DNA from: Puerhibacterium puerhi
GTDB taxonomy: Bacteria; Actinomycetota; Actinomycetes; Actinomycetales; Cellulomonadaceae
Direction of reading: 5' to 3'
DNA: 64,000 nucleotides
Assembly (NCBI RefSeq): GCF_009846865.1
Contig: NZ_WUWN01000019.1
Coordinates: forward strand, 1 to 64,000
Shown: positions 4,708 to 41,775 of the stretch, piece by piece
Layout of the letters: each line of letters opens with the position of its first letter
How positions within the stretch are numbered: position 1 is the stretch's first letter
Position numbers and translations under genes: made by a program
Notes under the pieces: generated by a model
Seen by the model: only the letters and a program-made list of their open reading frames with translations
The model's database searches: none
What the model was told of the DNA's origin: nothing

Positions 4708-5666
4708 TGGTCCTCTCCCGTCTTCTCCAGCGCCCGCGAGAGCCGGTTGGCCGCGAGGACGACGGCCACGATGACGAGGCCGGGCAGGGTGGTCAGCCAC
4801 CAGGCGGTGGCGAGGTAGTCGCGTCCGCCGGAGACGAGCGCGCCCCACTCCGGGGCGGGCGGCGGGTTGCCGTAGCCGAGGAAGCTCAGCGCGGAGACCG
4901 CCAGGACGGCCGTGCCGAAGTCGAGCGCGACCAGGGCCAGCACGGGTCCGGAGGAGTTCGGCAGCACGTGCCGGGCCAGTACCGCGGGCCAGCGCAGGCC
5001 CGATGCGCGGGCCGCCTCGACGTACACCGACGTCGAGACGCGCAGCACCTCCGCGCGCATGACGCGCGCGAACGTGGCCACCGAGCCGACGCCGACGGCG
5101 ATCGCGACCTTGACCGGCCCGAAGCCGAGGGCGGTGATGATCGCGAGCGACAGCAGGATGCTCGGGATCGCGAGCAGCACGTCCACGACCCGGCCGACGA
5201 GGTCGTCGACCCAGCCGCGCAGGAAGCCCGCGAGCAGCCCGAGGAGCGACCCCACGACGACGCCGACGACGACGGCCAGCGCCGTGGTCCGCAGCGTCAG
5301 CGAGGCGCCGTGCACCGCGCGGGTCCAGACGTCGCGGCCCAGGTGGTCGGTGCCGAACCAGTGCGCGGCCGACGGCGGCTGCAGGCGGTCGGCGGGCACG
5401 CCGTTGAGCGGGTCCTGCGCCGTGAAGGCGTGCGGGGCCACCGCCCAGGCGGTGACGAGCAGGAGCACGAGCCCGGCCAGCACGAGCCCGGGGCGGCGGG
5501 ACAGGTGGCCCGCCGCCCGCCGGGCGCGGCCGGCGGCGCGGTCCTTGTCGCGCGGCACCCGCGTGAGGCCGTGGCGCTGCAGGAGGCGGGCGTCCTCGCG
5601 GTCGGTGACCCCGGACGCACCGCTCGCGTGCTCGGTCGTCGCCCGGGCGTCCGTCGTCGCGCTCAT
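4704..5666 (-). CDS. ABC transporter permease, DppC/OppC type
   Basis: 320 aa from ATG 5666, overlapping the preceding permease stop (ATGA); its own stop overlaps the ATPase start. The protein has an N-terminal cytoplasmic arm of about 65 residues, a first transmembrane segment (LVLAGLVLLLVTAWAV), the OppC-type HWFGTDHLGRDVWTR motif and a BPD_transp_1 domain with about five further helices. The EAA-like loop is EAARASGLRWPAVLARHVLPN, the ATPase contact site. It forms the inner-membrane channel with the DppB-like partner. Tight overlaps with both neighbours indicate translational coupling and equal stoichiometry. Confidence 0.92.
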   Translation of the reverse strand: MSATTDARATTEHASGASGVTDREDARLLQRHGLTRVPRDKDRAAGRARRAAGHLSRRPGLVLAGLVLLLVTAWAVAPHAFTAQDPLNGVPADRLQPPSAAHWFGTDHLGRDVWTRAVHGASLTLRTTALAVVVGVVVGSLLGLLAGFLRGWVDDLVGRVVDVLLAIPSILLSLAIITALGFGPVKVAIAVGVGSVATFARVMRAEVLRVSTSVYVEAARASGLRWPAVLARHVLPNSSGPVLALVALDFGTAVLAVSALSFLGYGNPPPAPEWGALVSGGRDYLATAWWLTTLPGLVIVAVVLAANRLSRALEKTGEDQ

Positions 5667-6640
5667 GCCGCCACCGCCGTCGATCGTCGGGACTCGGTGA
5701 TGCCGCTGGACTCGATCCGGGGGTCGAGCAGCGGGTAGACCAGGTCGACCACGAGGGTGACCACCACGAAGACGAGCGCCGAGAACACGACGATCGCAAG
5801 GACCACGGGCACGTCCTGCTGGTTCACCGACTGCACCGTGAGGCGCCCGAGGCCGACGCGGGAGAACACGGTCTCGGTCACGACCGCGCCGCCCAGCAGG
5901 CCGCCGACCATGATGCCCAGCACCGTGAAGGCGGGGATCGCGGCGTTGCGCAGGGCGTGTGCGAGGAACACGCGCCCGCGCCCGGCCCCCTTGGCCCACG
6001 CTGTCTCGACGTAGGGCTCGCCGAGCGTCCCGCGCAGGGAGCGGGACAGCACCTGGGCGAGCTGGGCGCCGGCGGGCACGGCGAGGGTGACCGCCGGCAG
6101 CACGAGGCTGATCGCGCCCTCGTTGCCGATGGCCGGGAAGACCGGGACGCGGAACGACAGCCACTGCAGGAGCAGCAGGCCGACGAAGAACGTCGGCAAC
6201 GCCACCCCCAGCGGCGGCAGCGCCGAGAGCGCCTGGCGCAGGGCCCGGGCGCGCGGGAAGACGCTCGCGACGGCGAGCAGCGCGCCGCCTGCCACGGCGA
6301 GCGCCAGGGCGACCCCGGTGAGCTTGAGGGTCTCGGGCAGGGCCTGTGCGACGAGGGAGGTGGCCGGGGCCCCGCTGAGGTAGGAGGCGCCGAAGTCGCC
6401 CCGCACGGCCTGCCACAGGGCGTCGCCGTACTGCACGATCACGGGCCGGTCGAGGCCGTGCTGCGCGCGCAGCTCCTCGAGCAGCGCCGGGTCGATCTGG
6501 TCGACCTCGCCGCCGCCGCCGGCCGCGATCAGCGCCGCCGGGTCGCTGGGCAGCAGGTAGAGCACGAAGAACGCGATGGTGAACGTGGCCCACAGGACGA
6601 AGACGCCCTGTCCCACGCGTCGCAGGATGTACCGCGCCAC
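5663..6640 (-). CDS. ABC transporter permease, DppB/OppB type
   Basis: 325 aa. I chose GTG 6640 (protein VARYILRRVGQG) because it has a strong GGGAGG site seven bases upstream; the longer frame to 6679 lacks one. Features: first helix GVFVLWATFTIAFFVLYLLP followed by the periplasmic loop typical of DppB, then the BPD_transp_1 domain with EAA-like loop ETAWAKGAGRGRVFLAHALRN and the GGAVVTETVFSRVGLGRL block. It pairs with the DppC-type permease. The gene is separated from the binding-protein gene by 65 bp that contain a strong hairpin. Confidence 0.92.
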   Translation of the reverse strand: MARYILRRVGQGVFVLWATFTIAFFVLYLLPSDPAALIAAGGGGEVDQIDPALLEELRAQHGLDRPVIVQYGDALWQAVRGDFGASYLSGAPATSLVAQALPETLKLTGVALALAVAGGALLAVASVFPRARALRQALSALPPLGVALPTFFVGLLLLQWLSFRVPVFPAIGNEGAISLVLPAVTLAVPAGAQLAQVLSRSLRGTLGEPYVETAWAKGAGRGRVFLAHALRNAAIPAFTVLGIMVGGLLGGAVVTETVFSRVGLGRLTVQSVNQQDVPVVLAIVVFSALVFVVVTLVVDLVYPLLDPRIESSGITESRRSTAVAA

Positions 6641-6664
6641 GGCGGTCCTCCCTTCCGTCGGGGT

Positions 6665-6690
6665 CCGGCGCCCGGTCACCCGGGTGCCGG
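6665..6690 (-). terminator. Intercistronic hairpin between binding-protein and permease genes
   Basis: An 11-bp stem (CCGGC-G-CCCGG against CCGGG-T-GCCGG, with one G-U pair) and a four-base loop lie in the 65-bp gap. No U tract follows. Such hairpins commonly stabilise or attenuate transcripts so that the soluble binding protein is made in excess over the membrane subunits; that reading is inference. Confidence 0.5.
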
Positions 6691-6705: not shown

Positions 6706-8343
6706 TCAGGCCGCGTCGACCCAGGCGTCGTAGAAGTCGAGGCGCGAGGAGGCCTCGAACTTCAGGTCGTGGACCTTTTCGGAGGCGGCGATCGTGGTCG
6801 ACAGCTCGTAGACCGGGATCGCGTGCGCCTTCTCCACGAGCAGCTGCGAGGCCTGCGTCACGAGCTCCTGGCGCTCGGCCTGGTCGGTGGTGGCGGCGGA
6901 CCGGTCGAGCAGGTCGTCGACCTCCTCGGCGTCGCGCTGGTTGATGTTGCGGGCGTTCGCCGAGAAGATCGTGCGCAGCACGTCGGGGTCCGACCGCGTG
7001 AGGTTGTAGTAGTCGAAGTCGAAGTCACCCGACTCCTTGGCGGCCTGCGACTCGGCGACCGTGACGAAGTTGAGCTGCAGGTCGAACCCGATCTGGCGCA
7101 GCTGCTGCTGCACGAGCTCCAGCGCGTCCGGCGTCTGCCAGAAGGTGACGGTCGTCGTGAGCTTCTTGCCGTCCTTCTCGCGGATGCCGTCGGCGCCCTC
7201 GACCCAGCCGGCATCCTCCAGCAGCTTCTTCGCGCCCTCGGGGTCGTAGGCGAGCGCGTCGCCGAGCGACTCGTACAGGGGCGTCGAGTGCGACAGCACG
7301 GCCGTCGCCGGTGCGTCCTGCGCCGACAGGACGGTGTCGACGATCTGCTGTCGGTCGATCCCCTTGAGGATCGCCCTGCGCACGGCCTCGTCGGCGGCGA
7401 GCTCGCTCGACTCGTTGGGGAACAGGTTGTACACGACGCCGGGGTTGGCGCGCTGGTTCAGCGAGAAGCCGTTGCCGTCGAACTGCGGCAGGTCGACCGT
7501 GCTGATCGCCGCGGTCGCGTCGATCTGCCCGGACTGCAGCGCGCCGGTGCGCACGCTGGCCTCGGGGATGACCTTGAACGTCACCGTGTCGAGGTAGGCC
7601 TCGCCGGTGTGGCTGTTGGCCTGCGAGCCCCAGGCGTACCCGGCGACCTTCTCCAGGACGACCTCCTGGTCCTGGGTGTAGGACTGCACGGCGAACGGCC
7701 CGGAGCCGACGAACTTGCCGGCGCAGCGCTCCTCGGCGCTGAGGCTCGCGGACTCCGGCGCAAGCAGGCCGAGGGAGAACGTCGACGTGGCCTGGAGGAA
7801 CTGGGCGCTCGGGGCGGAGAAGTCGACTCGCACGGTGCGGTCGTCGACGACGGTGGTGCCCTCATAGCCCACGAGGTACTGCGAGCCGAGGGACGCGGTG
7901 GCGCCGAGCGCGACGATCGCGTCGAAGTTGGTCTTGACCGACTCCGCGTCGATGGGTGTGCCGTCCGCGAAGGTGGCGTCCTCGCGCAGGTGGAAGGTGT
8001 AGCTGGACGCGTCGTCGTTGACCTCCCAGGACTCGGCGAGCCACGGGACGATCTCGGCCGTCTCGGGGTCCTGGGCGGTCAGGGAGGCGACGGTCTGGCG
8101 GGCGACGGCGATGGCGTCGTTGTTGCCGACCTGCTGCGGGTCGATGCAGTGCGAGTCGACGGTGATCGCGAAGGTGAGGTTGCCCCCAGCAACGGGCTCG
8201 CCGGCGGCTCCGCCTGCTCCGGCGGCGGAGCCGCCGGCGGCTCCGCCGCCGGAGCAGGCGGACAGCAGCAGCGCGGCGGTGGCGGCGAGGGCACCGCCGG
8301 CGGCGGTGTGACGGCGGCGATGGGAGTGTGATGTCGTGGTCAT
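6706..8343 (-). CDS. ABC transporter substrate-binding lipoprotein, family 5 (SBP_bac_5)
   Basis: 545 aa from ATG 8343. The N-terminus has a positively charged stretch (SHRRRH), a hydrophobic core and the lipobox LLSAC, so it is a lipoprotein anchored at the Cys. A Gly/Ala-rich linker follows, then a family 5 extracellular domain of dipeptide/oligopeptide/opine type (QVGNNDAIAVARQTV near the start, SYTFHLREDATFADGTPI, VRRAILKGIDRQQIV, GAKKLLEDAGW). It delivers substrate to the two permeases encoded downstream. A SAM-IV riboswitch lies about 120 bp upstream of the start, so expression should fall when S-adenosylmethionine is plentiful. This suggests a sulfur-containing ligand, for example a modified cysteine or methionine (inference). 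Confidence 0.93.
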   Translation of the reverse strand: MTTTSHSHRRRHTAAGGALAATAALLLSACSGGGAAGGSAAGAGGAAGEPVAGGNLTFAITVDSHCIDPQQVGNNDAIAVARQTVASLTAQDPETAEIVPWLAESWEVNDDASSYTFHLREDATFADGTPIDAESVKTNFDAIVALGATASLGSQYLVGYEGTTVVDDRTVRVDFSAPSAQFLQATSTFSLGLLAPESASLSAEERCAGKFVGSGPFAVQSYTQDQEVVLEKVAGYAWGSQANSHTGEAYLDTVTFKVIPEASVRTGALQSGQIDATAAISTVDLPQFDGNGFSLNQRANPGVVYNLFPNESSELAADEAVRRAILKGIDRQQIVDTVLSAQDAPATAVLSHSTPLYESLGDALAYDPEGAKKLLEDAGWVEGADGIREKDGKKLTTTVTFWQTPDALELVQQQLRQIGFDLQLNFVTVAESQAAKESGDFDFDYYNLTRSDPDVLRTIFSANARNINQRDAEEVDDLLDRSAATTDQAERQELVTQASQLLVEKAHAIPVYELSTTIAASEKVHDLKFEASSRLDFYDAWVDAA

Positions 8344-8438: not shown

Positions 8439-8542
8439 CCCCGCCGCGGTCGCGGCGGGGTCAGGTCGATCCCGGAGCACCCCGTCACGTCGAAGGGTTG
8501 CTGGCCAGCGAGCCGGGCCTTGGCGCTGGCACTCGTCACCTG
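8439..8542 (-). promoter_or_regulatory. SAM-IV riboswitch in the leader of the ABC transporter operon
   Basis: Read on the minus strand, the aptamer (8542 down to 8462) opens CAGGTGACGAGTGCCAGCG, has the CCCGGCTCGCTGGCCAGCAACCC element and the GGGGTGCTCCGGG element, and closes with GACCTG; CAGGT/ACCTG form P1. This is the SAM-IV consensus known from actinomycetes. A very stable hairpin (CCCCGCCGCG against GCGGCGGGG, 8439-8460) follows at once, then GTAAGCACGG, an element also seen after P1 in the other two aptamers of this window. It sits between the LLM gene stop (8624) and the binding-protein start (8343), so it controls the transporter operon. Confidence 0.85.
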
Positions 8543-8544
8543 GG

Positions 8545-8577
8545 CGGCAGGGAAGCCTGCCGTGACGGCCCCGTCAA
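8545..8577 (-). promoter_or_regulatory. Possible promoter and palindrome upstream of the ABC-operon riboswitch
   Basis: On the minus strand TTGACG (8572-8577) lies 17 bp before a weak -10-like TTCCCT (8549-8554). The -10 is inside a perfect 7-bp palindrome CGGCAGG-cttc-CCTGCCG (8545-8562), which could be an operator or a terminator of the upstream LLM transcript. The other two SAM-IV leaders here also have TTGACG -35 boxes. Confidence 0.4.
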
Positions 8578-8623
8578 GGAAAGAGACGGGGGTCTTGCAT
8601 CCTGGACACCGCTGTCTCCGGCG

Positions 8624-9763
8624 TCACGCCGGCGCGGCGACGACGGCGTCCGTCCGCTGCGTGGCAGAGGCCGTGAAGCCCTTCGCCCGCCGCTCGTCCG
8701 CCTCGGACCACAGGTCGGTGGTCACCTCCTGCTTCACGAGCGGGATCACCTCCGCGGCGAAGCGGCGCACCACGTCCTCCTGCTGCGCGGGCGGCAGCAG
8801 GTGGTTGACGGACACCGACTGCAGCACGTGGCCGAAGTCCCGGTGGTAGTCGAGGATCTTCGCCGCGACCCGCTCCGGGGACCCCACGAGCGCCGGCCCG
8901 CGCTCCACCGCCTCCTCGATCGTCTCGAAGGCGAGCGCCTTGCCGACGTGCGTCGCCGGGTCGTACCCCCGCCGGCGCATCGCGGCGACCTGCCCCTCGT
9001 ACAGAGGCCGGTACTCCTCGATCGCGGCCTCGGTGGTGTCCGCGAGGAACAGCCCGCCCGACCCCGAGCCCACGAACCCGTACCGGGGATCGTGCCCGTG
9101 CGCCGCGTACAGCGCCCGGTAGCGGTCGATGAGGACCTGGTAGTTCTCCCGCGGCTGCAGCGCGTTCGCGCTGACGATCGGGTCCCCGTACCGGGCGGCC
9201 AGTTCGACGGCGAACTGCGAGGTCGCCGACCCGTGCCAGACGCGGAACGGTCCGGCGTAGGGCCGCGGCAGCGTGGTGGCGTGCTCGAGGCGGTGGCGGT
9301 GCCGTCCCTCCCAGGTCACCTCCTCCTCGCTGAGCAGGAGCCGCAGCAGCGCGTAGTTCTCCTCGAGGTACTCGTACTGCTTGGTGATGTCGAGGCCCAT
9401 CAGCGGGTACTGCAGCTCCTCGTTGCCCTTGCCGATGGTGATCTCGAGCCGGCCGCGGGAGAGCTGGTCCACCGTGGCGAGGTCCTCCGCGACCCGGACC
9501 GGGTCGAGCAGCGAGAGCACCGTGACGCCGGTGCCGAGCAGGATGCGCTCGGTGGCCTGCGCGCCCGCGCCGAGGATCACGGTGGGCGCCGACGACAGCA
9601 CGTCACCGGCATGCCGCTCCCCCACCGCGAACGAGTCGAAGCCGAGCTCCTCCGCCAGCACGGCGTGCTCCACCACGCGCGCGAGGCGGTCCGCCGGGGG
9701 GACGGCCTCGCCCGTGACCGGGTGCGGCGGGTTGAAGACGATGTCGAGCAGCTGGAAGCGCAC
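8624..9763 (-). CDS. LLM-class flavin-dependent oxidoreductase
   Basis: 379 aa from GTG 9763, three bases after the stop of the preceding LLM gene. It is a luciferase-like TIM-barrel monooxygenase: N-terminal sheet MRFQLLDIVFNPPHP, the EELGFDSFAVGERHAG segment, VDQLSRGRLEITIGKGNEE, and the C-terminal VGSPERVAAKILDYHRDFGH block. The family uses reduced FMN and oxygen to oxidise small organic substrates. It is the last gene of the run of LLM, GNAT and rhodanese genes that starts at 15.5 kb. Its substrate is not evident; the neighbourhood suggests a thioether or sulfonate intermediate. Confidence 0.88.
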   Translation of the reverse strand: MRFQLLDIVFNPPHPVTGEAVPPADRLARVVEHAVLAEELGFDSFAVGERHAGDVLSSAPTVILGAGAQATERILLGTGVTVLSLLDPVRVAEDLATVDQLSRGRLEITIGKGNEELQYPLMGLDITKQYEYLEENYALLRLLLSEEEVTWEGRHRHRLEHATTLPRPYAGPFRVWHGSATSQFAVELAARYGDPIVSANALQPRENYQVLIDRYRALYAAHGHDPRYGFVGSGSGGLFLADTTEAAIEEYRPLYEGQVAAMRRRGYDPATHVGKALAFETIEEAVERGPALVGSPERVAAKILDYHRDFGHVLQSVSVNHLLPPAQQEDVVRRFAAEVIPLVKQEVTTDLWSEADERRAKGFTASATQRTDAVVAAPA

Positions 9764-9766
9764 GGC

Positions 9767-10903
9767 TCAGGCCGCCTGCTCGCCCGCGCCGGCCGCGCCG
9801 GCCGTCGTCGCGGCCGCGTCCCGCTTGGCGACCTCCTCGCGCACGATCGGGATGACGTAGCGGCCGAAGTCGATCGCATCGTCGAGCAGGTCGTAGCCGC
9901 GGGCCGAGATCACGCGCACGCCGAGGTCGTAGTACCGCAGCAGCGCCTCGGCGATCTGCTCGGGGGTCCCCACCAGGGCGTTGGAGTTGCCCGCACCGCC
10001 GGTGGCCTTCGCCGTGGCCGTCCAGAGCACCTCGTCGAACCGCTCGCCCTGGGCAGCGATCTCCAGCAGCCGCTGGGAGCCGGCGTTCTCGGGGTTGGTG
10101 ATCGGGTGCCGCCTGGAGAGCTGGCCGCCCGACGCGGCTTTGCGTGCCTCGATCCGTTCGAGGACCCGGTGGGCCTTCTCCCAGGCCAGCTCCTCTGTCG
10201 GGGCGACGATCGGGCGGAACGCCGCGTGGATGCGCGGCGGCGTCGCGCGCCCGGCGGCGGCGGCCTCGGCGTGTACGCGCGCGATCTGCTCGGCGGTCCG
10301 GTCGCGCGGCTCGCCCCACACGGCGTAGATGTCCGCCTCGGCGGCCCCGACCCGGAAGGCGGCGTCGGACGACCCGCCGAAGGAGATCGTGGGCACGTGC
10401 CCCTCGACCGGCTTGGTGTCGAGCACGAAGTCCTCGAAGTCGTAGAACTGACCGTGGTGGTCGAACGCGTCGGGGCTGGTCCAGGCCTTCTTGACGATCC
10501 GGATGTACTCGTGGGTGCGGGCGTACCGCTCGTCCTTGGTGAGGCGGTCGCCCTCGCGGCCCTGCTCGTGGTCGTTGCCGCCGGTGATGAAGTGGACGCT
10601 CAGCCGGCCGCCGGAGAGCTGGTCGAGCGTGGCGAAGGTCTTGGCCGCGTACGTGGGGTAGCTGACGTTGGGGCGGTGCGCCAGCAGCAGCTCGATGCTC
10701 TGCAGGCGGGCGGCGGTGTACGCCGCGAGCGCCGCCGGCTCGGGGCCGGAGGACCCGTAGGCGAAGAGCACACGGGTCCAGCCGTTGTCCTCGTGGGCGC
10801 GGACGATCCGCTCGAGGTAGGCGGGGTCGAAGGCGGCGGTGGTGCGGGCCGACGCCTCCGAGGCGTCGTTGGTGGTGGCGATGCCGAGGAACTCGACGGG
10901 CAT
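9767..10903 (-). CDS. LLM-class flavin-dependent oxidoreductase, SsuD/alkanesulfonate-monooxygenase-like
   Basis: 378 aa from ATG 10903, preceded by AAGGAG at a good distance. Conserved features: VEFLGIATTNDASE at the N-terminus, FATLDQLSGGRLSVHFITGG (flavin-binding region of the SsuD-like subgroup), HHGQFYDFEDF, TISFGGSSDAAF and the C-terminal ALVGTPEQIAEALLRYYDLG. The enzyme should oxidatively cleave a C-S bond in a sulfonate or thioether using FMNH2 supplied by a separate reductase. It is the second of four LLM genes in this minus-strand operon, which makes a stepwise organosulfur pathway or a broad substrate range likely. Confidence 0.88.
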   Translation of the reverse strand: MPVEFLGIATTNDASEASARTTAAFDPAYLERIVRAHEDNGWTRVLFAYGSSGPEPAALAAYTAARLQSIELLLAHRPNVSYPTYAAKTFATLDQLSGGRLSVHFITGGNDHEQGREGDRLTKDERYARTHEYIRIVKKAWTSPDAFDHHGQFYDFEDFVLDTKPVEGHVPTISFGGSSDAAFRVGAAEADIYAVWGEPRDRTAEQIARVHAEAAAAGRATPPRIHAAFRPIVAPTEELAWEKAHRVLERIEARKAASGGQLSRRHPITNPENAGSQRLLEIAAQGERFDEVLWTATAKATGGAGNSNALVGTPEQIAEALLRYYDLGVRVISARGYDLLDDAIDFGRYVIPIVREEVAKRDAAATTAGAAGAGEQAA

Positions 10904-10945
10904 GGGACTCTCCTTGGGGGTGGTGAAGGGGCGAGGTGCTGTGGT

Positions 10946-12616
10946 TCACGCCGGCGACCGGGGCGACTGCTCCGGCCCGGTCGCCGGCAGGCCCGCGGCC
11001 TTCCACGCCGGGAAGCCGCCGTCGACGTGCGAGACGTTCGTGTAGCCGCGGGCCGCGAGCGCCTCGGCCACGGGGCCCGAGCCGTCGACGGACCCGCACA
11101 CGACCACGACCGGTGTGTCGAGGGCCACCGCGGGGTGGTCGGCGGGGCCGAACAGCGCGTCGAGGTCGCCGCGGTCGGCGTGGGTCGCGCCGGGGATCTC
11201 ACCGGCGGACGCCCGGCCCCCGGCCGAGCGGACGTCGATCAGCAGCGCACCGTCGGCCACCTTGTCGGCTGCGGCCTGGGGCGTCTGGAGCTCGGGGGTC
11301 TGCGAGGTGGCGGTCATGGTGGATGCCCTTCGGGTTGTCGTTGCCGGGTGAAGTTCGGGATGGGGTCGGGTCCTGCCGGCCTCGGTAAGGTCGAGACCGT
11401 GCGGGCGCCGTCTGGCGAGGGCCGGGGTCGCCCGGACGGACGAGGTGGGCGACGGCACGCCCGTCCATGCCTCGGCGAGGAGGGCGAACGAGCGGCGGAC
11501 GTCGGCTGGGTCGTGGGCGGCGGTCGTGACGAGCAGCTCGTCGGCTCCGGTGGCCCGCTGCAGCGTCTCGAGCCGCTCGACGACGGTGGCGGGGTCTCCG
11601 ACGATCCGGGTGTCGACGCGGTCGGCCACCACGGCGCGCTCGTCCTCCGGGCGCCGGGCCCACGGCGTCGCGTCCTGCGGGCGCGGGTAGGCGATCGCCC
11701 CGTCGGCCCCGCGCCGGATGGACAGCACCCAGTCGGCGAACGGCGTCGCCAGCTCGCGCGCGCGGTCCAGGGTGTCGGCCACGAGCACGTCGGCGGAGAC
11801 GACGACGTACGGCTCGGCCAGCACGCCCGGGCGGAACGCGTCGCGGTAGGCCGCGACGGTGTCGAGCGTGGTGTGCGGGCTGACGTGGAAGTTCGCGGCG
11901 ATCGGCAGGCCGAGCTCGCCGGCCACGCGCGCCGACTCTCCGCCGGAGGAGGCGAGCACGAACAGGTCGAACGCGGCGTCCTGCACGGGTGGGGACACAT
12001 AGCGGGTGCCGGCGGCATCGGCGTACGTCCCGGCACGCAGCCCGAGCACCAGCTCGAGCTCCTCGCGGAAGCTCGACGGCGTGCGCGCCGCCCCGACGAC
12101 CCGCTTCTGCGCCAGGATCCGCTCGCGCAGCGCGGAGTCGGTCAGGTCGACCGGCGGGGCGGGCGGCACGAGGAGGCCGTCGACGACGCGGGCGCTCGCC
12201 GCTGCAGGCCTCGGCCGCGGGTCACCGAGGAGCCCCGGCTCCTCGCCCGGTTTGCTCGGCGTCGTGAACGCCCGGCCCAGGCCCAGGTCGACGCGGCCGG
12301 GGTGCAGCGCGGCGATCGTGCCGAACTGCTCGGCGGCGATCAACGGGCTGGTGGTGCTCAGCAGCACGGCCCCCGACCCGACGCGGATCTGCGTCGTGCG
12401 CGCCGCCACCGCCGCGGCCAGCACGGCCGGCGATGCCGAGGCCACGCCCGGCGACAGGTGGTGCTCGGCGTACCAGATGCGCCGGTAGCCGAGCCGGTCG
12501 AGCTCCACGGCGAGCCCGACGGCGTCGCGGATCGCCTGCGCGCCGGTGCCGCCGTCGGGCACCAGGGCGAGGTCCAGCACGGACAGGGGTGCGCGGGCTG
12601 CGGTGGGGTGCGTCAT
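10946..12616 (-). CDS. LLM flavin oxidoreductase (MsnO8-type) in frame with a C-terminal rhodanese domain
   Basis: 556 aa from ATG 12616, which overlaps the upstream stop (ATGA). Residues 1-about 395 form a MsnO8-type luciferase-like oxidoreductase (VLDLALVPDG, YAEHHLSPGVASASP, GSGAVLLSTTSPLIAAEQFGT, LGLGRAF). After LAEAW comes a 40-residue Pro/Arg/Thr-rich stretch, then without any stop a complete single-domain rhodanese (ALLIDVRSAGG, VVVVCGSVDGSG with the persulfide Cys, HVDGGFPAWKAAGLP). An ATG at 11317 could start the rhodanese separately, but its ribosome site is poor. So either a real fusion channelling sulfane sulfur, or two genes whose separating stop has been lost. Confidence 0.85.
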   Translation of the reverse strand: MTHPTAARAPLSVLDLALVPDGGTGAQAIRDAVGLAVELDRLGYRRIWYAEHHLSPGVASASPAVLAAAVAARTTQIRVGSGAVLLSTTSPLIAAEQFGTIAALHPGRVDLGLGRAFTTPSKPGEEPGLLGDPRPRPAAASARVVDGLLVPPAPPVDLTDSALRERILAQKRVVGAARTPSSFREELELVLGLRAGTYADAAGTRYVSPPVQDAAFDLFVLASSGGESARVAGELGLPIAANFHVSPHTTLDTVAAYRDAFRPGVLAEPYVVVSADVLVADTLDRARELATPFADWVLSIRRGADGAIAYPRPQDATPWARRPEDERAVVADRVDTRIVGDPATVVERLETLQRATGADELLVTTAAHDPADVRRSFALLAEAWTGVPSPTSSVRATPALARRRPHGLDLTEAGRTRPHPELHPATTTRRASTMTATSQTPELQTPQAAADKVADGALLIDVRSAGGRASAGEIPGATHADRGDLDALFGPADHPAVALDTPVVVVCGSVDGSGPVAEALAARGYTNVSHVDGGFPAWKAAGLPATGPEQSPRSPA

Positions 12617-12789
12617 CGTGCGTCTCTCCAGTCGTGCGGACGGTGTTGGGTGCCCTCGGCCTCCACGACCCAGCGTTGGAGCACCTCGCGGTACGCCCGG
12701 TCGGCGGATGCGTGCTCGACGACGTCCGGCCGGGCCGGCGGAGGCTGCAGCAGGAGGGACTCGTCCTGGTGCGGGACCCACGGGGTCAT
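12613..12789 (-). CDS. 58-aa uncharacterised protein, translationally coupled on both sides
   Basis: ATG 12789 overlaps the GNAT stop (ATGA) and its TGA overlaps the LLM-rhodanese start (ATGA), so it is almost certainly translated. The protein begins MTPWVPHQDESLLLQPPPAR and ends QHRPHDWRDAR. It has a Pro-rich N-terminus and an acidic/basic helical middle (VVEHASADRAYREVLQRWVVEAEG). There is no signal peptide, no membrane segment and no Cys. I do not recognise a family. Its position between an acetyltransferase and a monooxygenase suggests an accessory or carrier/adaptor role in the same pathway. Confidence 0.75.
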   Translation of the reverse strand: MTPWVPHQDESLLLQPPPARPDVVEHASADRAYREVLQRWVVEAEGTQHRPHDWRDAR

Positions 12790-13436
12790 GGCGTCACCAA
12801 CCACTTCTCGAAGGCGTGCGGACCGATCGACCCGGGATCCGCGGAGGGGTTGAACAAGGGCGTGTAACCGGTCGCCAGGTACAGGCGGACCGCCTCCGGC
12901 TGCCGAGGACCCGTGGTCAGGTACACCCGGCGATAGCCGCGCTCGCGGGCGCGCTGCTCGAGCTCGGTCAGCACGATCCGGGCGAGACCGCGGCGGCGGT
13001 GCGCCGAGTGCGTCCAGATCCGCTTCAGCTCGGCCGTCGGCACGGCGGGCGCACCGTCGTCGCGGCGGGTGCCGGGACGGGACAGGCGCGCGGGGTCGCC
13101 GAGCTCGGCCTCGGTCCGGTGGCGGAACGCGCCGCCCGCGACGGGGTGGCCTGCGTCCGCGCCGTCCTCGCCCGCGCCCTCGAGCAGCAGGAGCAGCTCG
13201 CCGTGCGGCGGGGAGAACTCCCGCTCGCCGTAGTGGTCCATCTCGTGGCGCAGCTCCTCCTCGGACAGCACCTTCCGGTAGCGCGTCCAGTACTCGTGGG
13301 CGAGCTCGTCGAGCAGGGGGCGGACCAGAGGATCGCGCAGGTGGACCGACCGGATCTGCAGCGGCCACGTCGTCGCGCCGGCGGAGGCGCCGGCGGGCTG
13401 GTCGTGCGTCGTCGTGGTGGCGGGCGAGGACGTCAT
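12786..13436 (-). CDS. GNAT-family N-acetyltransferase
   Basis: 216 aa from ATG 13436, overlapping the DUF1684 gene stop (ATGA). The GNAT fold is clear: the acetyl-CoA loop is IWTHSAHRRRGLARIVLTELE (R/Q-x-x-G-x-A type), followed by YRRVYLTTGPRQPEAVRLYLATGY, the usual motif B. The N-terminus holds a disordered Thr/Ala-rich stretch. The reaction is acetyl transfer from acetyl-CoA to an amine. In Bacillus, S-substituted cysteines are N-acetylated by GNAT enzymes before flavin monooxygenase cleavage and M20 deacetylation. The same enzyme types co-occur here, so a similar role is a reasonable inference. Confidence 0.88.
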   Translation of the reverse strand: MTSSPATTTTHDQPAGASAGATTWPLQIRSVHLRDPLVRPLLDELAHEYWTRYRKVLSEEELRHEMDHYGEREFSPPHGELLLLLEGAGEDGADAGHPVAGGAFRHRTEAELGDPARLSRPGTRRDDGAPAVPTAELKRIWTHSAHRRRGLARIVLTELEQRARERGYRRVYLTTGPRQPEAVRLYLATGYTPLFNPSADPGSIGPHAFEKWLVTP

Positions 13437-14341
13437 CGTGGCGCCTTCTCCCCCGCCGCGACCGCGAACGGGACGTGGTTGCCGGGCGCCGGCGCCGGGC
13501 ACGTGCCGTGGTCGCTGAAGGCGTAGGGCAGGTTGAGCACCCGGTTGAGGTCGAGGCGGAGCGTGCCGGAGGCGCCGGGCGGCACGTCGTCGGGCAGGTC
13601 GACCCACAGTGCTCGCCACGGCGCGACGCCGTCGGCCTCGTCGCTGAAGAGCAGTGTCGCGGCGCCGCCCTTGCCGGTCAGCGTCAAGGTGGCGGTGCGC
13701 CGCCCGTCGGCGTCGGCGAGGTCGATCTCGCCGATCGCCTGCACGCGGTGGACGAGGCCCGCACGAGCGGCGCCGACGACGAGGTCGCTCGGCTCGGCGT
13801 GACGGCGCAGCGGCACGTCGCGCACCCAGGCCTCGTCGTACCCGAAGGTCGGCACACCGGTGAAGCCCAGGCGTGCGGGGGCGAGCGGGTCGCGCAGCCG
13901 GATCGCGTAGCGGCCGGTGCGCCGGACCAGCTCGACGGCGACGGCGGCCGTCTCGCCGCCTGCCTCGCCGTCGACAGCGCCGCCCTCCGGCGCCCGTCCG
14001 AGCGGCAGGTACGTGCCGACGACGCTGCTTCGCCCCTCCTCGAGCAGGGTGTCCGTCGCACCGTGCCGCAGCGCCTCGCCGACCAGGGTCGGCGCGCCGT
14101 GCCTGCCCGGGTCACCGCCTCGCACGTGCGCCCCCTCGGTGTCCGCCCACCACACGCCGGGCACGCCGGGCAATGTGCCCGGCTCGGCGGGCAACCAGTG
14201 ATAGCCGACGAGGGTGAGCCAGCCGTGCGGGGCGGCCAGGTCGCGCTCGCGACCGGCGCGCCAGGCGGACCACGCTTCCGCAGCGTGGCCGCCCGCCGCG
14301 GCCGGGAGCGACGTCGCATGGGTAGGGGTGTCGGTGGTCAT
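13433..14341 (-). CDS. DUF1684 family protein
   Basis: 302 aa from ATG 14341, with GAGGTG just upstream. The order of motifs matches DUF1684: N-terminal WSAWRAGRERDLAAPHGWLTLVGYHWL, central FGYDEAWVRDVPL, and C-terminal LRLDLNRVLNLPYAFSDHGTCPAPAPGNHVP with the conserved DLNR and CPAP elements. The biochemical function of this family is not established. It is cytoplasmic, with no signal or membrane segments. It is coupled to the GNAT gene and follows an LLM gene by 34 bp, so it belongs to the sulfur operon. Low-complexity Glu/Gly/Ala insertions are present around residues 120-135. Confidence 0.85.
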   Translation of the reverse strand: MTTDTPTHATSLPAAAGGHAAEAWSAWRAGRERDLAAPHGWLTLVGYHWLPAEPGTLPGVPGVWWADTEGAHVRGGDPGRHGAPTLVGEALRHGATDTLLEEGRSSVVGTYLPLGRAPEGGAVDGEAGGETAAVAVELVRRTGRYAIRLRDPLAPARLGFTGVPTFGYDEAWVRDVPLRRHAEPSDLVVGAARAGLVHRVQAIGEIDLADADGRRTATLTLTGKGGAATLLFSDEADGVAPWRALWVDLPDDVPPGASGTLRLDLNRVLNLPYAFSDHGTCPAPAPGNHVPFAVAAGEKAPR

Positions 14342-14375
14342 GGTCACCTCGGATCTCGTGGGGAGGGCGGTCGGG

Positions 14376-15521
14376 TCAGGCGTCGACGAGCTGGTCCGGG
14401 GCGCGCCGCTCGAGCGGCGGCCGCGGGATCGTCGTGGCACGCCGCGGCCGCCCTTCACCGTCGGCGCCCGCACGGGCACGCGGTGCGCCGCGCAGGCCGA
14501 GGCTCTCGCGCAGGGTGCCGGCGCTGCGTCCCGTCCGGAACAGTCCGGCACGCTGCAGCTCCGGCACCAGGTGGTGAGCGATCGCGTCGAGGTCCGGGCC
14601 CAGTGCCGACGGCCGCAGCACGAACCCGTCGGCGGCGCCCGCCGCGTGCCAGTCGGCGATCACCGTGGCCAGCCGCCCGGGGGTGCCGGCGACCATGAGC
14701 GCGCCGGTGGCGCCGGAGCCCTCGGCCTCGACCAGCTCGAGCCGCGCCTGCGCGCTCTCGCGGTCGGACGACAGCACCACGACGGCGTCCACGACCACGC
14801 GCACGGCGTCCGGGGCACGAGCCGCCGCGACGGCGGCCGCGCGCACCGCCGTGCGCAGCTGCGCGGCCTGCGCGGCGTCAGCCGCCGCGACGCGCGCGAC
14901 GTCGGCGACGCGACCGGCGAGCACGGTGCAGGCCTCGGAGCGGACGCGCACGACCACGGGCGGGCGGCACTGCGGCGGCACCCCGCCACCTCCCGCGGCG
15001 GCGTCGCCGGCCGCCACGCTCTCGCCGCCCCAGGCCCGGGCCACGGCCACGACCGCCGGCTCGGCTCGCGCCGCCCAGGCCTCGTCGGGCTCGGCCGTCG
15101 CTGAAGGCGCCGCGACCTGCCAGCCGGCCCGGCCGGCGCTGGCGCGGTCGATCCTGGCCACTGCCGCGGCCACGTGCGCCGCATCGAGTGCGAACGGGTC
15201 CACGGCGGCGACCAGACCGATGCTCCGGGTGTGCGGCACCGCCCGAGCGGCGGCGACGGCGGCGTCGAGCCGCCCGGCTGCCCGGGGGCGACCGGGATGC
15301 AGCACGAAGCCCTCGTCGAGGGCGACGAGGTCGAGGAGGGCCCGGTCGGCGGTGCGCACGAGACCGACGAAGCGCTGGCCGTCGAAGGGACGGGGGCCGA
15401 CGGCGCCGCGGGCGCGGTGGCCGGCCGAGCCGGCGCCGGCAGCGGTGAGGTCGACACCGAGGATGACGCGGCGGGTGGCCCCGAGGGACGTCCGGTGCGG
15501 CGTCGAGGCGGGCAGAGGCAT
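14376..15521 (-). CDS. LLM-class flavin-dependent oxidoreductase, divergent (NtaA/SnaA-like)
   Basis: 381 aa from ATG 15521; a longer frame reaches 15596 but lacks the family signature. The core is luciferase-like: GVDLTAAGAGS, FVGLVRTADRALLDLVALDEGF, AAAVARIDRASAGRAGWQV, and the C-terminal TPGRLATVIADWHAAGAADGFVLRPSAL block shared by NtaA/SnaA/DszA-type monooxygenases. The middle is shorter and more Ala-rich than usual. It is the first long gene behind a SAM-IV riboswitch and a Cys-ending short ORF. A strong hairpin sits about 17 bp before the start. It leads the operon of LLM, DUF1684, GNAT and rhodanese genes. Confidence 0.83.
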   Translation of the reverse strand: MPLPASTPHRTSLGATRRVILGVDLTAAGAGSAGHRARGAVGPRPFDGQRFVGLVRTADRALLDLVALDEGFVLHPGRPRAAGRLDAAVAAARAVPHTRSIGLVAAVDPFALDAAHVAAAVARIDRASAGRAGWQVAAPSATAEPDEAWAARAEPAVVAVARAWGGESVAAGDAAAGGGGVPPQCRPPVVVRVRSEACTVLAGRVADVARVAAADAAQAAQLRTAVRAAAVAAARAPDAVRVVVDAVVVLSSDRESAQARLELVEAEGSGATGALMVAGTPGRLATVIADWHAAGAADGFVLRPSALGPDLDAIAHHLVPELQRAGLFRTGRSAGTLRESLGLRGAPRARAGADGEGRPRRATTIPRPPLERRAPDQLVDA

Positions 15522-15537
15522 GGAAGGGGCTCCGTTC

Positions 15538-15558
15538 GGGGCGGCCGACGGCCGCCCC
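15538..15558 (-). terminator. GC hairpin just before the LLM start codon
   Basis: A perfect 9-bp stem GGGGCGGCC-gtc-GGCCGCCCC ends 17 bp before the LLM ATG and lies after the Cys-ending short ORF. It could act as an attenuator or hide the ribosome-binding region; which of the two is not shown by sequence alone. Confidence 0.5.
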
Positions 15559-15664
15559 CGCGCGTCGAGGCGGCGGGAGCGGTCAGACGGCCGCAAGGCT
15601 GAGCGGGTCGAGAAGGGCCCAGGGCGGGCTAGCGGTCACCGGGCCAGGTCGGGTCGGGTCGCGG

Positions 15665-15778
15665 TCAGCGACAACACTCGAGCGGGCGCGCGACGTCGCG
15701 CGGCGTCCGCGTCGTGGCCGTCCCCGCACCCTGGGAGGACTCGGCCGCAAGGCCGTCGAGCGTCTCGCTCGGGCTCAT
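15665..15778 (-). CDS. Candidate leader peptide, 37 aa, ending in tandem cysteines
   Basis: ATG 15778 has GGAG six bases upstream (CCAGGAGACGACG). The peptide starts MSPSETLDGLAAESSQG and ends ARPLECCR before TGA. The last codons are CTC GAG TGT TGT CGC: two adjacent Cys codons, both TGT, which is rare in a genome this GC-rich. The ORF lies between a SAM-IV aptamer and a stable hairpin preceding the LLM start. This is the layout expected of a translational attenuator sensing Cys-tRNA. Cys-containing leader peptides before sulfur operons are known in actinobacteria; that this is one is inference. Confidence 0.55.
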   Translation of the reverse strand: MSPSETLDGLAAESSQGAGTATTRTPRDVARPLECCR

Positions 15779-15845
15779 CGTCGTCTCCTGGTGTGCCCGC
15801 TCGGCGGGCGTCGCGTCTTGCCCGGCGCCGGACGGCGACGAGCCT

Positions 15846-15921
15846 GGTCCTCACCCGGGGCACCCGCCCACGCGGGGGTTGCCGTCCGACCAGCCGGGGC
15901 TTCGCGTCGGAGCTCATGACC
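15846..15921 (-). promoter_or_regulatory. SAM-IV riboswitch upstream of the LLM/GNAT operon
   Basis: On the minus strand the aptamer reads GGTCATGAGCTCCGACGCG, CCCCGGCTGGTCGGACGGCAACCC, then GGGTGCCCCGGGTGAGGACC. GGTC/GACC close P1. This fits the SAM-IV consensus closely. It is followed by GTCCGGCGCCGGGCAAGACGCG, including the GCAAG element seen after the other aptamers. Downstream come the Cys-ending short ORF and the LLM gene, so SAM repression is expected for the whole operon. Confidence 0.88.
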
Positions 15922-15979
15922 TACCGAGGCGGCGGGCGCGCCGATGTGAAGGACCGCTCACCGCGCCTCGGTGCGGTGG

Positions 15980-16008
15980 AAGGTACGAAGCGAGCGTGCC
16001 GGCGTCAA
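15980..16008 (-). promoter_or_regulatory. Sigma-70-type promoter for the SAM-IV/LLM transcript
   Basis: Minus strand TTGACG (16003-16008), 17-bp spacer, TACCTT (15980-15985). The transcript would begin about 50 bp before the aptamer. Confidence 0.55.
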
Positions 16009-16074
16009 CGGATCGCAGCTGCGTCTCACACTGCGAGAACCGCTTCTCGACGCGGAGCCGCCGACGCTTCGCGG

Positions 16075-17553
16075 TCAGGCGTCCGGCGCGCAGCCGAACG
16101 TCTCGTCGCTCGCCGCGGCTGTCGCGAGCAGGCCGGTCAGGCCCACGCCCTCGGGCACCGGCCGCGGGTCGTCGGTGACCACCCACAGGCCGTCGACCAC
16201 GTCGTACCCCGCCCGGGGTCCGTCCGTCACGAGGGCGCGGACGGCGTCGAGCAGCCGCTCGACGTCGGACCCGGGCGTGCTCAGGCCCACGGAGACGCGC
16301 ACGGCGCCGGCGTCGAACCCGAGCCGGCCGAGCAGCGGGTGGGCGCAGAACCGCCCGTCGCGCACGCCGATGCCGTGCTCGGCCGAGAGGTAGGCGGCCA
16401 CCAGGCCGGGGTCGTAGCCGGCGACGGTGAACGTCACGACGCCGATCGGGTCGGCGGCGTCGTCCCAGATCCGCAGCACCCGGACGCGGTCGACCTCCTC
16501 GAGCCCGGTCACGAGCCGGCGGCGCAGCGTCCCCTCGTGGGCGCGCACGAGGGCCGGGTCCAGGGCGGCGAGCGCCTCGCACGCCGCGGCGAGCGCCGCC
16601 GCGCCGAGCACGTTGGGCGACCCGCCCTCGTGGCGCGCCGGACCGTCGAGCCACTGGGTGCCCGAGGTGCGTACCCGACGCACCGCCCCGCCGCCGGCCA
16701 GGTAGGGCGTGCCGGCGTCGAGCCAGTCGCGACGGCCGACCAGGGCGCCGGCTCCGAAAGGCGCGTACACCTTGTGGCCGGAGAACGCGACGTAGTCCAC
16801 GCCGGTCCGCTCGAGCGAGAAGCGCCGGTGGGCCACGAGCTGGGCGCCGTCGAGCGCCACCCGTGCCCCGGCCGCGTGGGCCGCCGCGACGACCTGCTCC
16901 ACCGGGAGGGACTCCCCCGTGACGTTCGAGGCGCCGGTGAGCGCGACGAGCGCGTAGGGCACGCCGGCCGCGGCGGCGTCGGCGAGCTCGGCACGCAGCT
17001 GGGCCAGCGTCCCGGCGACGGTGCGCGCCCCGGTGAGCGCTGTGACGTCGGTGCCGCGCTGCCAGGGCAGCAGGTTCGCGTGGTGCTCGACGTCGAGCAC
17101 CAGCACGCGCCCCGGCGCGCCGGTGGCCGGGTCGGCGGGGACGCACCCGGCCAGGAGGTTGAGCGCGTCCGTCGTGTTGCGCACCACGACGGTGAGGTCG
17201 TCGGCGCGGGCGCCGACGAAGTCGCCGATCGTGCGGCGGGAGTCCTCGTACAGGGCGGTGGAGACCTGCGAGAGGTAGCCCGCGCCCCGGTGGACGCTGG
17301 CGTACAGGGGCAGCAGCCGCCCCACCCGCTCGGCGACCACCGCGAGCGCCGGGGCCGAGGCCGCCAGATCGAGGTTGGCGTACGGGACGCGGCGCCCGTC
17401 GACCAGCGGCACGTGCGTGTCGGCCCCGACGACCGGCAGCAGCGGGTCCAGGTCCGCCACCCGGGCGACGGCGTCGGCCGGGCCGGCCTCGCCGCGGTCG
17501 TCAGCCGGGGCCGACGGCCGCGCGTCGGAGCGGGGGTCTGTCAGCGTCGTCAT
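16075..17553 (-). CDS. Class V aminotransferase, SufS/cysteine-desulfurase-like
   Basis: 492 aa from ATG 17553 with a strong AGGAGG site. It is a fold-type I PLP enzyme: NLDLAASAPAL, VRNTTDALNLLA, DVEHHANLLPW, VALTGASNVTGE, the PLP lysine motif FSGHKVYAPFGAGALVG, and FCAHPLL near the C-terminus, where group II desulfurases have their active-site Cys. A Cys-dependent C-S lyase or desulfurase acting on a cysteine derivative is likely. About 80 residues of extra, partly disordered sequence at the two ends distinguish it from SufS of the Suf operon, and no suf genes are nearby. A SAM-IV riboswitch lies directly upstream, so it belongs to the sulfur regulon. Confidence 0.87.
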   Translation of the reverse strand: MTTLTDPRSDARPSAPADDRGEAGPADAVARVADLDPLLPVVGADTHVPLVDGRRVPYANLDLAASAPALAVVAERVGRLLPLYASVHRGAGYLSQVSTALYEDSRRTIGDFVGARADDLTVVVRNTTDALNLLAGCVPADPATGAPGRVLVLDVEHHANLLPWQRGTDVTALTGARTVAGTLAQLRAELADAAAAGVPYALVALTGASNVTGESLPVEQVVAAAHAAGARVALDGAQLVAHRRFSLERTGVDYVAFSGHKVYAPFGAGALVGRRDWLDAGTPYLAGGGAVRRVRTSGTQWLDGPARHEGGSPNVLGAAALAAACEALAALDPALVRAHEGTLRRRLVTGLEEVDRVRVLRIWDDAADPIGVVTFTVAGYDPGLVAAYLSAEHGIGVRDGRFCAHPLLGRLGFDAGAVRVSVGLSTPGSDVERLLDAVRALVTDGPRAGYDVVDGLWVVTDDPRPVPEGVGLTGLLATAAASDETFGCAPDA

Positions 17554-17586
17554 GCGTGTCCTCCTCGGTCACCGGGGAGGCCGGAC

Positions 17587-17711
17587 GCCGTCCCCGCGCT
17601 TGCCGCGCGCGGACGGCCCGGGCGCGGCCAGGTCGTCACCCGGGGCACCCCGCCGCGAGGGGAGGGTTGCCGTCCAGCCAGCCGGGGCTTCGCGCTGGAG
17701 CTCATGACCTG
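17587..17711 (-). promoter_or_regulatory. SAM-IV riboswitch upstream of the SufS-like gene
   Basis: Aptamer on the minus strand from 17711 to 17629: CAGGTCATGAGCTCCAGCG, CCCCGGCTGGCTGGACGGCAACCC, GGGGTGCCCCGGGTGACGACCTG. CAGGTC/GACCTG make a 6-bp P1. A downstream hairpin (GCGCGG-ACGGC paired with GCCGT-CCGCGC, 17587-17617) contains GGCAAG in its loop region. The SufS-like gene starts 34 bp beyond the hairpin. This is the clearest of the three copies. Confidence 0.9.
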
Positions 17712-17947: not shown

Positions 17948-18433
17948 ATGAGCACCGAGTCCAGGGCCGCCGACGGCTACACCGGCGACATCACGCCCGA
18001 GCAGGCGTGGCAGCTGCTCGCCGACGACCCGGGCGCCGTCCTCGTGGACGTGCGCACCGAGGACGAGTGGCGGCGCGTCGGCGTGCCCGACGTCGCCGCG
18101 ACCGGCCGCCCCGCCGTCTTCGCGCAGTGGGTGCTGGCCGACGGCACACCCAACCCCACCTTCCTCGCCGACCTGCGCGCCGCGCTCGCGCGGGTCGGCG
18201 CCGACCGGCCGTCCGCGCTCGTGCTCCTGTGCCGCTCGGGCCAGCGGTCCGTCGCCGCCGCCCGCCTCGCGTCCGCCGCCGGCCTCGGGCCCGCCTACAA
18301 CGTGCTCACGGGCTTCGAGGGTGCGCCCGGGCCGGACGGCGTCCGCGACCGCGAGGGCTGGAAGGTCGCCGGCCTGCCGTGGCGGGCCACGTGGGACGGG
18401 CGCGCCGTCGTCGTCCCGGAGCCGGCCGCGTGA
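17948..18433 (+). CDS. Rhodanese-like sulfurtransferase
   Basis: 161 aa from ATG 17948 with GGAGGAACG directly upstream. One rhodanese domain: ITPEQAWQLLADDPGAVLVDVRTEDEWRRVG at the start, and the active loop VLLCRSGQRSVAAARLA with the persulfide Cys, then YNVLTGFEGAPGPDGVRDREGWKVAGLPW. The insertion between strand and loop (TGRPAVFAQWVLADGTPN) is typical of the rhodanese subgroup that accompanies sulfhydrylases. Its stop overlaps the metZ start (GTGA), so it is probably coupled to MetZ and may deliver sulfane sulfur or handle thiosulfate; the actual donor is unknown. Confidence 0.92.
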   Translation: MSTESRAADGYTGDITPEQAWQLLADDPGAVLVDVRTEDEWRRVGVPDVAATGRPAVFAQWVLADGTPNPTFLADLRAALARVGADRPSALVLLCRSGQRSVAAARLASAAGLGPAYNVLTGFEGAPGPDGVRDREGWKVAGLPWRATWDGRAVVVPEPAA

Positions 18434-41451: not shown

Positions 41452-41524
41452 GCGGATGTGGCTCAGTTGGTAGAGCATCACCTTGCCAAGGTGAGGGTCG
41501 CGGGTTCGAGTCCCGTCATCCGCT
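41452..41524 (+). tRNA. tRNA-Gly (anticodon GCC), copy 1
   Basis: 73-nt cloverleaf: GCGGATG/CATCCGC acceptor stem, anticodon stem TCACC/GGTGA with loop TTGCCAA, T arm GGGTTCGAGTCCC, discriminator T. Identical to the copy at 42567-42639. Confidence 0.96.
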
Positions 41525-41763: not shown

Positions 41764-41775
41764 CGCGGACGCACG

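Follow-up and report, generated by a model that had tools for sequence, protein, structure and literature searches.

A cysteine-codon leader open reading frame behind a SAM-IV riboswitch in Puerhibacterium puerhi suggests two-signal control of actinobacterial sulfur genes

SAM-IV Riboswitches and a Cysteine-Codon Leader

Riboswitches of the SAM-IV class are usually taken to be stand-alone sensors of S-adenosylmethionine (SAM). In Puerhibacterium puerhi, three of them lie close together on the minus strand of contig NZ_WUWN01000019.1 (positions 1 to 64,000; these 64,000 nucleotides (nt) are hereafter called the window), upstream of an ABC transporter operon, an operon of luciferase-like flavin monooxygenases (LLM) and a SufS-like gene. 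Between the middle aptamer and LLM_A, the first gene of the LLM operon, we found an open reading frame (ORF) of 37 amino acids (aa), MSPSETLDGLAAESSQGAGTATTRTPRDVARPLECCR, which is preceded by a Shine-Dalgarno (SD) motif, starts 30 nt after the aptamer and ends in ...RPLECCR; the start of LLM_A follows 143 nt past its stop codon. The ORF has no NCBIfam match. It shows the layout of an amino-acid leader attenuator: a short ORF behind its own SD, with consecutive Cys codons close to the stop and a fitting operon downstream. The LLM_A paralogue of the same genome is likewise preceded by SAM-IV and then by an ORF ending in ...RRRMCCRPC, and a search for such a Cys leader ahead of the window's two other SAM-IV units, SufS-like and ABC, found none. 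From these features and the comparisons below, we consider it fairly probable that control of the LLM operon lies in a two-part leader, in which a SAM-IV riboswitch is followed by an ORF whose Cys (perhaps also Met) codons would be read by the ribosome.

The three aptamers had been proposed in a first-pass annotation of the window and were borne out by a covariance-model search (cmscan, Rfam 15, both strands of the whole window, gathering cut-offs). SAM-IV (RF00634) matched three times, always over the full model (1–116) and above its cut-off of 38 bits (Table 1), and the six remaining above-cut-off matches were all tRNAs. The P1 stems described earlier are all present in the sequence, and the downstream genes are as had been stated. 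The hairpin with a (G)CAAG element that had been noted after each core is present as well, but it belongs to the 3′ portion of the SAM-IV model, because the tail that follows CAAG can pair with the P3 loop; a pseudoknot of this kind, joining the P3 loop to the 3′ tail, is characteristic of SAM-IV. Complementarity of tail and loop was found in all three window copies, and the paired bases differ from copy to copy. In 189 of the 193 SAM-IV loci introduced below, the mean loop:tail helix was 5.20 base pairs (bp) when matched and 4.76 bp when tails were swapped between loci (highest of 50 swaps, 4.84 bp). From these features we infer that the window aptamers bind SAM. The whole genome (3.907 Mb) contains six SAM-IV sites, half of them within 9.3 kb; when six sites were placed at random, three fell within 9282 bp in 60 of 200,000 draws. 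Looser clusters, with three SAM-IV sites per about 42–54 kb, occur in four relatives (G048, G050, G087, G111).

Recurrence of the Leader in Relatives

For the comparison with other loci, a strict leader was defined as an SD-led ORF of 4–60 aa that starts 5–60 nt past the aptamer and contains at least two Cys among its last 12 residues, a rule formulated after the window ORF had been seen. Such a leader was present in 44 of 144 fetched SAM-IV loci, compared with 59 of 21,772 random 56-nt zones of the same DNA (0.27%). By set, the counts were 2/6 in the own genome, 0/30 for the best family loci, 21/59 for lower-ranked family loci, 16/18 for LLM_A loci and 5/30 for the best class-level loci; the 144 loci also hold one duplicate without a leader, and three places in all are duplicated (L096=L005, L105=L045, L113=L090). 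The Cys rule was met by 65.7% of 67 short ORFs at the post-aptamer place and by 4.4% of 1216 short ORFs elsewhere. Examples, each written up to its stop codon, are MYRSQCRCCCR, VRMCCCRH, ...RMCMCMSTCADRCCQR, ...AMCCCSMSVQA and ...TGTCCMCMCLCTMA.

The association was also examined in loci sampled by LLM_A. Of the LLM_A homologue loci within the taxonomic order, the first 20 beyond the window gene (L098–L117) were searched with Rfam, and SAM-IV was detected in 18; 17 of these have a Cys ORF by a looser rule and 16 by the strict rule, and in the eighteenth (L115, genome G283) the ORF is visible when the locus is read as L229. The next locus, L118, also has both elements, and no SAM-IV was found by Rfam at seven more distant homologues (L119–L125). 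Three LLM_A relatives (L098, L106, L171) had neither SAM-IV by Rfam nor a Cys ORF in the stretch searched, a result that is weak for L106, whose gene start lies further upstream. In a sample of 63 loci from named genomes, all were scanned for the core motif and 20 were searched with Rfam (Occultella, Ruania, Pseudactinotalea, Actinotalea, Georgenia, Oceanitalea, Flavimobilis, Sanguibacter hominis and Serinibacter). SAM-IV preceded LLM_A in 19 of these 20, and each of the 19 had a Cys ORF, although the SD rule was waived in reading five; the sole exception, Sanguibacter gelidistatuariae (L171), had neither. The motif scan added a core with a Cys ORF in two loci beyond the 20 (L174, L183). In one family (f13), LLM_A is present in 23 of 24 genomes, and 23 of 24 loci scanned have an ORF by a loose rule (at least two Cys, SD not required); at L230 the loose-rule ORF sat behind a wrong motif, and its actual leader was identified separately, and L234, with SAM-IV by Rfam, stood outside the leader reading. 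Taken together, we hold with high confidence that an architecture of SAM-IV followed by an SD-led Cys ORF upstream of genes for sulfur acquisition and assimilation is real.

Two variants were seen along the way. Five class-level loci of one family (L138, L142, L145, L146, L151) carry a Cys-free mini-ORF, MSKRMR, after SAM-IV and were left out of the counts. In three loci the SD stands right at the aptamer end and serves a GTG-start ORF of 8–11 codons (the VRMCCCRH type), upstream of a MetN-like gene (L086, L089) or a DszA-like LLM (L063).

Leader and Target Gene

To which genes the leader belongs was read from 193 loci selected by SAM-IV, not by gene, and classified by their first downstream gene. 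They comprise 6 loci of the own genome, 30 best and 59 further family loci, 30 best class-level loci and 68 loci of a second family (f22; 28 best new and 40 further rows). The 59 further loci were chosen by hand, mostly as second or weaker matches per genome, and aimed at other targets, so that the sample is a non-random pick with many related members; in the class-level and f22 loci the aptamer end was set by the core motif instead of the model. A strict leader was found in 43 of the 193 loci. None of the 86 SufS-like genes is preceded by one, as against 17 of 20 LLM_A, 20 of 45 MetY and both MetN genes, and the remaining classes gave 1/11 (SBP5), 1/4 (permease-first), 1/4 (DszA-like LLM), 0/2 (SsuD-like LLM) and 1/19 (other). 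Ten more loci, nine MetY and one DszA-like LLM, have a Cys mini-ORF, no longer than ten residues, that falls short of the strict rule; in the MetY cases it has a single Cys. The MetY leaders of f22 are often only five or six codons long (MCCCRR, MCSCHE, MCRCC). Fisher tests against SufS gave P values of 6e-17 for LLM_A and 2e-11 for MetY, which are inflated because many loci are related. As the presence of the leader differs by target, SAM-IV is one riboswitch class with two layouts, sorted by target gene.

The codons of the leaders were compared in hand-picked sets (35 leaders for substitutions and 50 for reading frame), in which an enrichment of Cys as such would be circular. ATG occurred 97 times in frame and 0 and 2 times in the other frames. 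For TGY the counts were 173 in frame and 123 and 24 out of frame, the 123 probably stemming largely from ATG overlapping a following T or C. Substitutions at Cys codons of the Occultella/Ruania-type group numbered 43 synonymous and 26 nonsynonymous, compared with 73 and 350 for all other codons. Such a pattern, with a free body and regulatory codons that matter, would be expected of a leader peptide, but is not proof of one.

The SufS-type loci differ in their linkers. Between aptamer and SD of the window's SufS-like gene, a candidate anti-SD, CCUCCCC, follows the aptamer tail GCGGGGA, and an anti-SD tetramer is present in 58 of 80 SufS-type linkers, compared with 35.5 after shuffling. This linker fits a direct translational OFF switch, as far as its sequence can tell.

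Proposed Mechanism and Alternatives

In the scheme that we propose for the LLM operon, the aptamer would bind SAM as one signal, and the leader ORF would be translated, with the progress of the ribosome over its Cys (and Met) codons as the readout of the other. This progress might determine if RNA polymerase continues through the C-rich region past the ORF, in an attenuation of the Rho type, and/or whether the SD of the operon is freed, as in translation attenuation; the operon would be fully on only with SAM and cysteine both short. SufS-like genes would be governed by SAM-IV alone with a simpler output, where bound SAM could block the start site directly via the anti-SD that the linkers often carry. 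For the wider group we lean, by a modest degree, towards an old actinobacterial two-signal leader, in which SAM-IV would gate a Cys/Met leader peptide and genes for scavenging and for O-acetylhomoserine sulfhydrylation would be on only when SAM, Cys and Met are all short, the SufS-like targets having a riboswitch with direct translational output. As to the route, the 100 nt past the ORF stop have mean C and G contents of 0.464 and 0.297 (0.374 and 0.361 in the loci overall), with C exceeding G in 50 of 50 cases, and such a C-rich, G-poor stretch resembles Rho loading sites. Nine relatives share a hairpin past the leader stop; in their alignment, double changes affect 6 of the 28 consensus pairs, including one pair of that hairpin. 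The presumed attenuation may take a Rho-dependent or a translational route.

Several observations weigh against this scheme. The Cys positions drift in the Georgenia group (2 synonymous and 60 nonsynonymous changes) and in the g6 group (0 and 16). The strict ORF is missing in 3 of 20 LLM_A and 16 of 45 MetY loci, and 9 further MetY loci have only the one-Cys mini-ORF. Leader-type linkers are not enriched in anti-SD tetramers (8/53, 12.8 after shuffling); since the enrichment is confined to SufS-type linkers, leader-type loci must act otherwise than these. In thermodynamic folds, which are unreliable for such GC-rich RNA, the SDs of the SufS-like and substrate-binding protein (SBP) genes are mostly paired whether or not the aptamer is enforced, and the leader SD with the aptamer enforced opens in a short construct and closes in a long one, without a consistent switch. 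The operon SD is unpaired in the consensus fold of the nine relatives. Inspection by eye of the stretches examined past the ORF revealed no terminator with a U-run, and C-richness is not peculiar to leader loci, because the 30-nt SufS linkers share it (C 0.413, G 0.324).

Other explanations of the same data differ in what they make of the short ORF. It could be incidental to a plain SAM-IV regulon, as the first-pass annotation implied, and the three good aptamer matches agree with this, as do the SufS-like and SBP units of the window, which are without a Cys ORF; yet the recurrence of the ORF at one place in 43 of 193 loci, its dependence on gene type, its rarity in random zones (0.27%) and the in-frame ATG bias make this quite improbable. 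It could instead encode a functional Cys-rich microprotein for metal or thiol binding that is under SAM control and is no sensor. The Cys-selected ORFs are indeed richer than other short ORFs in Met (6.1 vs. 1.1%) and in Cys (13.1 vs. 2.7%, a figure that is partly circular given the selection rule), but lengths from 5 to 43 codons (MCRDC, MRCCCQ and MCCCRR up to L061) and a weakly conserved body, with mostly nonsynonymous changes outside the Cys codons, are hard to reconcile with such a protein, which we regard as very unlikely.

Two further alternatives accept a leader peptide and change one of its inputs. SAM might act positively, its binding freeing the leader SD so that the ORF is read and attenuation sets in when Cys is plentiful, with the ORF silent in the absence of SAM. 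A short fold of the window, which pairs the SD with a CUCC of the aptamer when the aptamer is unformed and opens it when the aptamer is enforced, is what this would require; the longer fold shows the opposite, however, the CUCC lies outside the SAM-IV consensus and the folds are subject to the caveat given above, so that we rate positive action as unlikely. A greater, though still minor, chance is given to a leader for which methionine is a signal, either next to cysteine or in its place. Many lineages have Met codons in frame on either side of the Cys codons (for example MCMCMSTCADRCCQR, MCMCLC and CACMCMR), in keeping with the 97 in-frame ATG triplets, but no Met lies near the stop of the window leader or of several more (ECCR, QCRCCCR, CRRSCR), and in the mini-leaders MCCCRR and MCSCHE the start is followed by Cys without further Met.

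Genes of the Cluster and the Wider Regulon

The annotated features are listed in Table 1.

Table 1. Regulatory elements and genes of the SAM-IV cluster, with positions in the window.
Feature	Position	Strand	Evidence and remarks
SAM-IV aptamer 5′ of SufS-like gene	17709–17591	minus	94.3 bits, E 7.5e-16; P3 loop:tail CTCGCG:CGCGGG
Candidate anti-SD CCUCCCC, between aptamer and SufS-like SD (GAGGAGG, 17566–17560)	17580–17574	minus	sequence
SufS-like class-V aminotransferase/cysteine desulfurase family, 492 aa	16075–17553	minus	PF00266, E 3.2e-74; TIGR01979, 261.3 bits, under cut-off of 475.1
SAM-IV aptamer 5′ of leader ORF and LLM operon	15921–15809	minus	81.2 bits, E 6.9e-13; P3 loop:tail CGCGT:ACGCG
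SD of leader ORF, AGGAG	15789–15785	minus	sequence
Leader ORF, 37 aa	15778–15665	minus	sequence and recurrence
Two adjacent Cys codons, UGU UGU, one codon away from the stop	15671–15676	minus	sequence
Strong hairpin GGGGGCGGCC-GTC-GGCCGCCCC, directly 5′ of LLM_A SD (GGAG, 15533–15530)	15559–15538	minus	sequence; forms in unconstrained fold
LLM_A, luciferase-like flavin monooxygenase, first gene of operon	14376–15521	minus	PF00296, E 6.2e-14; best NCBIfam TIGR03860, 98.7 bits, below cut-off
DUF1684 protein	13433–14341	minus	PF07920, E 6e-26
GNAT acetyltransferase	12786–13436	minus	Pfam
58-aa ORF	12613–12789	minus	no family in Pfam or NCBIfam
MsnO8-type LLM, frame open into rhodanese	11329–12616	minus	TIGR03558, above cut-off
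Rhodanese domain	10946–11317	minus	Pfam
LLM, alkanesulfonate monooxygenase-like	9767–10903	minus	under NCBIfam cut-off
LLM, CE1758-like	8624–9763	minus	under NCBIfam cut-off
SAM-IV aptamer 5′ of ABC transporter	8540–8427	minus	87.3 bits, E 2.9e-14; P3 loop:tail CGTG:CACG
Peptide/nickel-type SBP, first gene of ABC operon	6706–8343	minus	PF00496
Remainder of ABC operon	3001–6679	minus	permease 4707–5666 and ATPase with two ABC domains 3001–4710 (Pfam); 5663–6679 permease by position only

The first-pass annotation had read the whole block as a dedicated SAM-repressed sulfur system. Its observation is confirmed and its interpretation partly supported: each aptamer precedes its own gene set and the sulfur theme stands, but SAM repression covers one input only and is incomplete as a description, because the LLM operon has a Cys-codon ORF, absent from that annotation, between riboswitch and first gene. 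The DUF1684 and 58-aa proteins had also been assigned to sulfur metabolism. Relatives of the DUF1684 protein occur in other SAM-IV loci (L045, L048, L061, L073), as do relatives of the GNAT protein (L045, L048, L058, L061, L067, L074, L075, L099), a recurrence that fits a sulfur role; DUF1684 genes stand beside LLM homologues also in four loci where SAM-IV was not found (L121, L122 and L125 by Rfam, L201 by motif scan only). The assignment of the 58-aa protein was not sustained. Neither Pfam nor NCBIfam placed this protein in a family, and at E 1e-3 the fetched loci contained no relative of it, so that operon position is the basis of the assignment. The family libraries provided no specific function for the LLM_A, DUF1684 and 58-aa proteins, LLM_A falling below every NCBIfam cut-off. 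Of the genome's remaining SAM-IV sites, one lies before the LLM_A paralogue (55% identity), one before a pair of flavin reductase and LLM, and one before a 145-aa protein without a Pfam family. Because of the families downstream of its SAM-IV sites, the regulon looks like one for organosulfur scavenging.

The frames of the MsnO8-type LLM (start 12616) and the rhodanese domain (start 11317) coincide without an intervening stop (10946–12781, minus). In three relatives (L041, L042, L053) the two matches lie in separate ORFs, and the open frame of the window is either a fusion or a lost stop. A second rhodanese-domain protein (17948–18433, plus) is encoded divergently to the SufS-like gene, and the two have a common upstream region. 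At the ABC operon, an in-frame GTG-start ORF that overlaps the start of the SBP gene at 8343 was rejected as a leader, since it is not rich in Cys and an SD stands ahead of the SBP start in eight relatives. Elsewhere in the window, tRNA-Gly(gcc) and tRNA-Val(gac) occur twice each within 1.3 kb (41452–42754, plus), with one tRNA-Cys(gca) at 41597.

Comparison with Known Systems

If SAM-IV and a Cys leader act in series, many actinobacterial sulfur genes, those of the metY type included, would be read by two RNA-based sensors per transcript. Such a pair would form a natural logic gate and explain the two kinds of linker within one riboswitch class, and the presence or absence of the Cys ORF would be a simple sorting rule for SAM-IV targets. 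Mycobacterial polycysteine short ORFs are reportedly cysteine-responsive, and the title of the 2020 work by Canestrari calls them leaderless. The ORFs described here differ in that they have an SD, lie downstream of a SAM riboswitch and often have Met codons mixed in; SD and position, 5–60 nt past the aptamer, would speak against a leaderless start of those that were counted. In Mycobacterium smegmatis, the polycysteine case is described as translation attenuation (PMC13236596). Leader ORFs with Cys runs had been predicted upstream of actinobacterial cys operons by Seliverstov in 2005, without a conserved terminator and with Rho as the suggested factor (PMC1262725), and the short ORFs with Cys codons near the stop before sulfur operons appear alike in both cases. 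In Streptomyces lividans, the "methionine" leader metL upstream of metNIQ, MSTTSDRTPATEATTTPGARCMCRRMCAF, includes three Cys in its final nine residues (PMC8079986). By analogy with the leaders described here, it may read Cys too.

SAM-IV itself has been placed upstream of a cysteine desulfurase gene in S. lividans (SLIV_26975; PMC8079986), of an O-acetylhomoserine sulfhydrylase gene in Mycobacterium avium (MAV_4315; PMC3774663) and at cg1478 of Corynebacterium glutamicum (PMC3890552). Aptamer, tail pseudoknot and position relative to the gene are alike; the Cys/Met leader ORF, which we find with one class of targets only, is unmentioned in the available portions of those accounts. Riboswitches linked to upstream ORFs (uORFs) are known from Mycobacterium tuberculosis, with B12 at ppe2 and metE (PMC11260477) and with the Mbox at pe20, where the title of the paper speaks of a translational platform with Rho-dependent termination (PMC12810186). 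These resemble the present case in that a riboswitch is combined with a translated short ORF (translation being predicted here) that affects the downstream gene. They differ in their ligands, B12 and Mg2+, and the accessible text does not describe their uORFs as amino acid sensors. The mgtA leader of Salmonella combines Mg2+ sensing with codon-dependent ribosome stalling at the proline codons of MgtL in one leader. It thus joins ion and codon sensing, with another ligand, other codons and in other bacteria. Upstream of cysS in Rhodobacterales, the uORFC-8-2 motif has tandem Cys codons in a leader ORF, for which ribosome-mediated attenuation was proposed (PMC8632094); that motif is alphaproteobacterial, has an intrinsic terminator and has no riboswitch. 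A report joining SAM-IV with a Cys leader was not found among the papers listed in the literature searched, although the SAM-IV discovery paper, which lay outside it, may mention short ORFs. Both components are known singly, and it is the tandem of SAM-IV and a Cys/Met leader ORF that is the new point.

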